Below, piece after piece: positions 15,150 to 16,512 of a stretch of 21,609 nucleotides of DNA. Each line of letters opens with the position of its first letter. Positions within the stretch are counted from its first letter, which is position 1. Made by a program: the position numbers and the translations under genes. Source of the DNA: a virus; IMG/VR virus record IMGVR_UViG_3300020202_000219, positions 1-21,609 of that record. One strand, written 5' to 3'. Under the pieces are notes generated by a model. That model did no database searches, had not been told where the DNA came from, and saw nothing but the letters and a program-made list of their open reading frames with translations.

Positions 15150-15256
15150 GCGGCGAGGTCGCTCAGGGGAGCGGATAAGCCCGGCCAAGAAGCCCTCCCC
15201 GACAAGTTGACTGCTCTTTGAAAATTAGGTACTTAGGGCTCCGAAAGGATACATCG
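15150..15256. other. intergenic region left of attP with hairpin
   Basis: No gene. GGGGAG...CTCCCC can form a stem around 15166-15200, and GCTCCG/CGGAGC (15238-15260) a second one that runs into the tRNA-like segment. A weak promoter-like pair TTGACT, 17 bp, TACTTA occurs near 15208-15236. It may serve the integrase, but the -10 is poor. Confidence 0.4.
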
Positions 15257-15305
15257 GAGCTTTCCTAAAGCTTTGTTCCAAGTTCGATTCTTGGTGAGGC
15301 CACCA
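15257..15305 (+). other. attP core: 3' half of a tRNA-Arg(CCU) gene
   Basis: The bases fold as a tRNA from the anticodon arm to the end. The anticodon arm is GAGCT-TTCCTAA-AGCTT (15257-15273), with U33, anticodon CCU at 15264-15266 and A37-A38. A 4-nt variable region follows, then the T arm CCAAG-TTCGATT-CTTGG (15278-15294), an acceptor strand TGAGGCC, base A and CCA. No proper D arm or matching 5' acceptor strand (GGCCTCA) lies upstream, so it is not a full tRNA gene. Phages that integrate in tRNA genes carry just such a 3' half next to the integrase. Recombination would restore the host tRNA gene. Confidence 0.8.
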
Positions 15306-15353
15306 TTAATTCCCAAGTGATTTCATGGCTTTACTGGTTTCTGACGCAGTTCT

Positions 15354-15395
15354 GAAAATGGATATCTTTTTCCCGAAAATGGATATCGATATCCA
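15354..15395. repeat. GAAAATGGATATC repeats and palindrome between attP and integrase
   Basis: GAAAATGGATATC occurs at 15354-15366 and 15375-15387, 21 bp apart (two helical turns). The second copy is part of a perfect 16-bp palindrome TGGATATCGATATCCA (15380-15395). This is the layout of integrase arm sites or excisionase/repressor sites next to an att core. Confidence 0.65.
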
Positions 15396-15435: not shown

Positions 15436-16512
15436 ATGAATAATAGTAGCTGGCACCTCACCTACGACGCCGGAAAGCCGCGTATTCGCCGTAAACGCAA
15501 CGGGAAGTGGGAAACATACCCGGCGAAGAAATTCCGAGATTTTACACAAGAGCAGTTGAACGACCTCGTTATAAGGCTCAATAACAAGAGCCCCGAGGAG
15601 GCGCGGATCAGGGCCAAGCTCGACTTAGACCACGCCTATATCTCACCTAATCTCCTATTCCAGTATTTTGAGCATTTGTGCCAGGAGATCCCAAGCCAGA
15701 AGAACGCCCGGCGCAACTTTGGATATCTTCAACGCCACGTTCTTGGCTTCTTTGTAAAGACGCATAAGATCCGCGACCCCCAGAACTGGCATAAGGCGCA
15801 GGATCGCTGGGCAAAGTACCTGACCGAGCGCAAGCTCTCAGGGGCCGCTATCAGACAGATTGTGATCGAGGCTAACCGATTCGTGGCCTGGCTCCATAAA
15901 GAGCGCCCAGACGAAGTGCCTCCTTTGAAGTTTCAACCGATTAACCGCGCCCGGATGAAGTACTTGGAAGCGCAACGGGAGCTAGATGGCGAAGTCAAAG
16001 AACGGAAAATCGTCCAAGAATCGGACTGGAAGAAAATCGTCAAAACCTGCCCTGCCGAACTCGCCCCTTTTATTCAGCTTGGGGCCAACTATGGTTTACG
16101 AAGGGCGGAGTCTCTTGGCGTTACTCCCGACGCTCTCCGAAAAGGATATCTCGTCATCAGCAAGCAGTACGTTGGTAGTGACCAATATAGACCGCTCAAA
16201 GGGCGAGATCACCGTAAGATCCCGCACTGGTTCTCTGGACCGGCGCTTGCCTACGAATGGATCGAAGCCGCGCAAAAGCTTTTAATGCATCCGGACACGC
16301 TTACTCACAAATGGGCGGACTTGATGCAGAAGCTCGGCATGGATTACGACTTCCACGACCTACGTCACACGTTTATTACCAAGGCAATCCGGCAATACGC
16401 TCCTCGCGACGTACAATTAGCAGCCGGACACAAGAACATGGAGACTACCATGCGCTACTCACACGATGACCGCGCACTCGATGATGAGCCTTTTGACCCA
16501 AAAGCAGCTTAA
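15436..16512 (+). CDS. int: tyrosine recombinase / phage integrase
   Basis: A 358-residue tyrosine integrase. The N-terminal part (WHLTYDAGKPRIRRKRNGKW) looks like an arm-binding domain. The core-binding helices follow to about residue 180. The catalytic residues are Arg222 in YGLRRAESLG, a Lys in LKGRDHRKIP (255 or 261), His307 and Arg310 in HDLRHTF, His332 in GHKNMETTMRYSH, and the nucleophile Tyr341. All six positions are present, so it should be active for integration and, with an excisionase, excision. It sits 130 bases from the tRNA-derived attP. The ATG at 15436 directly follows AGGAG with no spacer, and a 14-codon frame (15399-15443) ends across it, so reinitiation is a possibility. 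It overlaps the next gene by one base (TAATG). Confidence 0.95.
   Translation: MNNSSWHLTYDAGKPRIRRKRNGKWETYPAKKFRDFTQEQLNDLVIRLNNKSPEEARIRAKLDLDHAYISPNLLFQYFEHLCQEIPSQKNARRNFGYLQRHVLGFFVKTHKIRDPQNWHKAQDRWAKYLTERKLSGAAIRQIVIEANRFVAWLHKERPDEVPPLKFQPINRARMKYLEAQRELDGEVKERKIVQESDWKKIVKTCPAELAPFIQLGANYGLRRAESLGVTPDALRKGYLVISKQYVGSDQYRPLKGRDHRKIPHWFSGPALAYEWIEAAQKLLMHPDTLTHKWADLMQKLGMDYDFHDLRHTFITKAIRQYAPRDVQLAAGHKNMETTMRYSHDDRALDDEPFDPKAA

Follow-up and report, generated by a model that had tools for sequence, protein, structure and literature searches.

A putative phage attachment site formed by the 3' part of an Oligoflexia-type tRNA-Arg(CCU) gene

Genes and tRNA-like segment at the locus

The window (the whole stretch of DNA analyzed here, 21,609 nucleotides) is a 21.6 kb virus record from IMG/VR, IMGVR_UViG_3300020202_000219. 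To the left of the site described below it encodes a DNA polymerase, an exonuclease and an Erf/recombinase-like protein, and to the right an integrase, a terminase and a portal protein. Genes of the left arm as well as of the right arm (terminase, portal) have homologues in another phage, L043, which places the site inside the phage genome and makes it an attP rather than an attL or attR. The integrase is a 358-aa tyrosine integrase (15436-16512, plus strand; PHROG phrog_1, E-value 2e-19; Pfam PF00589, 38.9 bits with a cut-off of 27.1) with the candidate catalytic residues R222, K255, H307, R310, H332 and Y341, assigned by eye from the motif positions. Among named phages its sole match is Cyanophage SS120-1 (31% identity over 40% of the protein), and no close relatives were found in viral contigs.

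The segment 15257-15305 lies upstream of the integrase gene, which reads away from it, at a measured distance of 131 bp (about 130 bp in the original prediction). Direct reading of this segment bears out the tRNA parts previously proposed for it: an anticodon arm (15257-15273, GAGCT TTCCTAA AGCTT) with U33, CCU and A37, the variable bases TGTT, a T arm (CCAAG TTCGATT CTTGG), the acceptor strand TGAGGCC, the discriminator A and CCA (15303-15305). ARAGORN reported no tRNA gene in the whole window. The Rfam tRNA model aligns end to end with 15237-15302, with a shortened D arm and a score of 26.9 bits, which is lower than the gathering score of 29; the region lacks the complete cloverleaf of a functional tRNA gene. 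The segment 15257-15305 comprises everything from the anticodon arm through CCA in a tRNA-Arg(CCU) but no functional 5' half.

Identity with tRNA-Arg(CCU) genes of Oligoflexia

When 84,980 species genomes were scanned for exact copies of a 45-mer (15257-15301), two contigs only matched, JAMPXJ010000035.1 and JAMPXZ010000009.1, both from Oligoflexia MAGs (G001 and G002). At both contigs ARAGORN calls a complete tRNA-Arg(cct), which confirms the proposal that a host tRNA-Arg(CCU) ends in this segment, and both genes begin with GGCCTCA, exactly as had been forecast. The identity runs through CCA, as expected, and is slightly longer than proposed: it covers 15255-15307 (plus strand, 53 bp, nt 25 to CCA plus TT) in G001 and 15255-15306 in G002, and thus encloses 15257-15305. 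The phage segment corresponds to the final two-thirds of the host gene. BLAST reported a single full-length match of the att region in each of the two MAGs. Where other Oligoflexia genomes gave a match, their tRNA-Arg(CCU) gene region is mostly 74-92% identical, which indicates that the exact match is specific and goes beyond the plain conservation of tRNAs, while the exact identity of 52-53 bp to two host genes excludes a chance resemblance. This comparison supports the attachment of the phage at the tRNA-Arg(CCU) gene in a host of the Oligoflexia type; this host lineage, as read from the tRNA alone and with both host genomes being MAGs, is likely.

A window-phage lysogen bounded on either side by the repeat, which the original prediction would lead one to expect, was not found in the two host genomes or in viral contigs, and neither was a pair of empty and filled sites. 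Neither a 36-mer from the att segment nor a relaxed 33-mer matched any of the viral contigs searched. Neither G001 nor G002 contains a relative of the integrase, and their class shows weak matches only; among 369 genomes of the phylum, the search for a prophage with the terminase of the window phage returned a single 30% match. A split tRNA in genome G039 was ruled out as the site of an inserted element, as all that joins the two contigs is an overlap of 20 bp, with no integrase beside it.

Units of about 250-290 bp were observed to follow tRNA-Arg(CCU) or ssrA in Oligoflexia genomes (L054:2034-2325 in G002, L053:3487-3712 in G001, L065 in G038, L057:1517-2025 in G017 and L061:1526-1770 in G050). 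In G002, G017 and G050 the unit comprises a long hairpin, an antisense copy of the T arm of the RNA and a sense copy of the final 19-30 bases of that RNA. No other sequence is common to the ssrA units and the tRNA-Arg units. These units are reminiscent of the tyrT repeats of E. coli.

Sequence elements around the core

Immediately left of the segment, AAAGGATACATCG (15244-15256, plus strand) agrees at 10 of 13 positions, and in register with the tRNA, with the D loop and the 3' part of the D stem of the host gene (AATGGATATAACG); matches as good as this occur at 4 of 43,192 window positions. The statement of the original prediction that no D arm or 5' acceptor strand exists therefore stands as far as a working D arm is concerned, but it overlooked this degenerate D-loop-like stretch, a putative left core site of the integrase. 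We rejected the possibility that the preceding heptamer GGCTCCG (15237-15243) is a hidden 5' acceptor strand, the pairing being within chance: the heptamer can form 6 of 7 pairs with TGAGGCC, for which the chance expectation is 14-27% for 10-21 placements. The predicted RNA fold has no D stem, and 15237-15244 pairs instead with the 5' strand of the anticodon stem. The corresponding element in the DNA is a perfect 7-bp inverted repeat, GCTCCGA / TCGGAGC, with a 9-base loop (15238-15260, plus strand), which in RNA transcribed from free phage DNA would be predicted to sequester that strand of the anticodon stem.

Further to the left lies TGCTCTTTGAAAATTA (15212-15227, plus strand), the core of which, GCTCTTTGAAA, also occurs in L043 at the equivalent position left of att. 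The 15238-15260 hairpin is located just 3' of the GCTCTTTGAAA motif, and the pair looks like a putative boxA-hairpin antitermination site. The candidate host ribosomal RNA leader motif TGCTCTTTGAAAATT was rejected, as it gave two matches in 58 genomes, with neither an rRNA nor another Rfam match in the vicinity.

Between the core and the integrase gene there are two 13-bp direct repeats GAAAATGGATATC (15354-15366 and 15375-15387, plus strand, 21 bp apart) and a perfect 16-bp palindrome TGGATATCGATATCCA (15380-15395), which overlaps the second repeat. The repeats and the palindrome are candidate arm-type integrase sites, judging from their sequence and position, or the repeats could be an operator. 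Direct repeats spaced by 21-23 bp are also found in G140 and G127, and not clearly in G325 or G252, all of which contain relatives of the integrase.

Integrated relatives of the integrase

Relatives of the integrase were detected in 20 of the 369 genomes of the phylum, with the best identity of 45%. In 17 of these genomes no more than about 1.5 kb separates the integrase relative from a complete tRNA, which is Met, Leu(GAG), Leu(CAA), Arg(TCT), Arg(TCG), Arg(CCT) or Thr(CGT). The closest relatives (45% identity or less) use tRNA genes other than tRNA-Arg(CCU), with the exception of G270, where tRNA-Arg(CCU) occurs in a different configuration. Five genomes carry a second copy of the 3' part of the tRNA beyond the element: G140 (53 bp, nt 25-77), G325 (nt 31-87), G252 (nt 23-87), G127 (45 bp, nt 33-77) and G306 (nt 30-74). 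These copies are 45-65 bp long and begin at nt 23-33, and each is separated from the intact tRNA by some 3 to 14 kb that include the integrase gene. An intact tRNA, an integrase and a displaced 3' copy in these five relatives represent the integrated form predicted by the window; this arrangement of intact tDNA and displaced fragment was seen for the five relatives only, and not for the window phage. In G140 (L115) a diverged second copy of the 3' part of tRNA-Met is located past the first (C24:37869-37913), which suggests a tandem or an older integration at the same gene.

In the relatives, the corresponding side of attR is derived from the element, and there too likeness to the D loop was found, at 68 of 126 positions over seven sites (null: mean 30.8, maximum 56 in 200,000 draws), with the two G140 sites contributing nothing and with G325, G252 and G306 being similar to each other. 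Part of this match may be leftover identity.

A different arrangement was observed in G333, G270, G249, G232, G231 and G251 (L122, L129, L128, L126, L138 and L139), in which a relative of the integrase is flanked by a 5' half-tRNA on one side and a complete tRNA on the other. The half and the complete tRNA have the same anticodon wherever the half is readable (CGT in G333, CCT in G270, TCT in G249 and G232). In G232 the complete tRNA-Arg(TCT) adjoining the integrase is the sole full-length close match found, and in G231 and G251 the integrase is partial and the tRNA complete. This arrangement matches the signature of tRNA-dependent lysogeny, which has been described for actinobacteriophages (Guerrero-Bustamante and Hatfull 2024, PMC10865867).

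A sister phage with a different integrase

L043 (IMGVR_UViG_3300020202_000088) resembles the window phage in its terminase (73% identical), in similar genes in both arms, in an integrase gene just upstream of the terminase and in the GCTCTTTGAAA motif left of att. Its integrase (PHROG phrog_1 at 1e-6), however, shows no significant similarity to that of the window despite occupying the same place. Between this integrase and the GCTCTTTGAAA motif (L043:8690-8752) we found CTCCCACCGGCTCCACCAT, the 3' end of an Oligoflexia-type ssrA; the match is short (about 20 bp) and constitutes weaker evidence than the segment in the window. It appears from these sequences that the window phage and L043 have exchanged int-att modules (tRNA-Arg(CCU) vs ssrA) within one phage group.

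Proposed integration and alternative explanations

We consider it very probable that 15255-15307 is the attP core, which the adjacent 358-aa integrase recombines with an Oligoflexia-type host tRNA-Arg(CCU) gene so that the tRNA is restored. The crossover would most likely fall in the 7-bp anticodon loop TTCCTAA (15262-15268, plus strand), the putative overlap region, which is bordered by the dyad of the anticodon stem (15257-15261 / 15269-15273); strand exchange at this point is suggested by the dyad together with the identity of the relatives' repeats, which starts at nt 23-33. Integration would join the 5' half and the promoter of the host gene to the 3' half carried by the phage, so that the tRNA would be regenerated unchanged, and the host's original 3' half would come to lie at the distal end of the prophage. 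When recombination at the anticodon loop is carried out in silico, the tDNA is indeed regenerated: attL contains the unchanged 75-nt tRNA, while attR and attP contain none. We infer where the crossover falls and where the left core and the arm sites lie, and also that the window phage itself integrates at all.

Sites of this type are well known. In Islander, 3760 of 3919 islands have a 3' fragment and 2083 have an anticodon-centred site, and att sites in tRNA genes that combine the two are the commonest kind (PMC4383910). The window shares with them a terminal tDNA fragment in attP that is identical to the target, an adjoining tyrosine integrase and the restoration of the target tRNA (here in silico), but differs in that neither the Oligoflexia host lineage nor the phage group has been cultured and that the site is known from the free phage form alone. 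The anticodon loop and stem correspond to the 7-bp overlap and the core of lambda-type sites (review: PMC8371274). Like lambda attP, the window has a short symmetric core, an adjacent int and, with the repeats between core and int, candidate arm-type sites; unlike in lambda, the core is the anticodon arm of a tRNA, and the arm sites are putative.

The simplest reading of the D-loop-like stretch is that the left core site of the integrase covers the D loop, so that attP would retain this likeness. More tentatively, and with somewhat less than an even chance of being right, we speculate that in this integrase family the left core copies the D loop of the tRNA (TGGATA / TGGTA-like, in register), that the enzymes read the D loop together with the anticodon arm in many different tRNA genes, and that the family spans tRNA-restoring members and members with tRNA-dependent lysogeny in one phylum.

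The segment could alternatively be a decayed tRNA of host origin, i.e. a vestigial attP or a tRNA pseudogene no longer used for integration, as its 5' part resembles a degraded D arm and no lysogen was found in the two host genomes or in viral contigs. We regard this as highly improbable: 53 bp have remained unchanged beside a diverged 5' part, the reading frame of the integrase retains intact candidate catalytic motifs, its relatives use tRNA genes, and the same half-conserved pattern is seen at the att sites that they use.

Still less credible is a shortened but functional phage tRNA-Arg(CCU), in which the 69 nt of 15237-15305 would be transcribed and would work without a normal D arm. The end-to-end alignment to the Rfam model and the potential pairing of GGCTCCG with TGAGGCC speak in its favor, but the score falls short of the gathering threshold, ARAGORN finds no gene, the acceptor pairing is within chance, the anticodon arm is disrupted in the predicted RNA fold, and identity to the 3' but not the 5' part of the host gene is the pattern of an attP. 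Finally, it is extremely unlikely that the window phage disrupts the host tRNA and replaces it with a phage-encoded tRNA of the same isotype: it resembles the actinobacteriophages with tRNA-dependent lysogeny (PMC10865867) in that a tyrosine integrase targets a tRNA gene, and several relatives of this integrase in the same phylum show the matching signature, but in place of a short non-restoring core and a tRNA of the same isotype the window contains a shared core of 52-53 bp that restores the tRNA in silico, and no complete tRNA gene.

Implications

The preferred reading, attP recombining with a host tRNA-Arg(CCU) gene, involves a textbook mechanism, and the novelty lies in the link between phage and host. 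If the left core site is read correctly, a copy of the D loop is kept even though that side of attP never has to form a tRNA. Sequence alone allows a likely host lineage, together with the gene in which insertion is likely, to be named for a group of uncultured phages.
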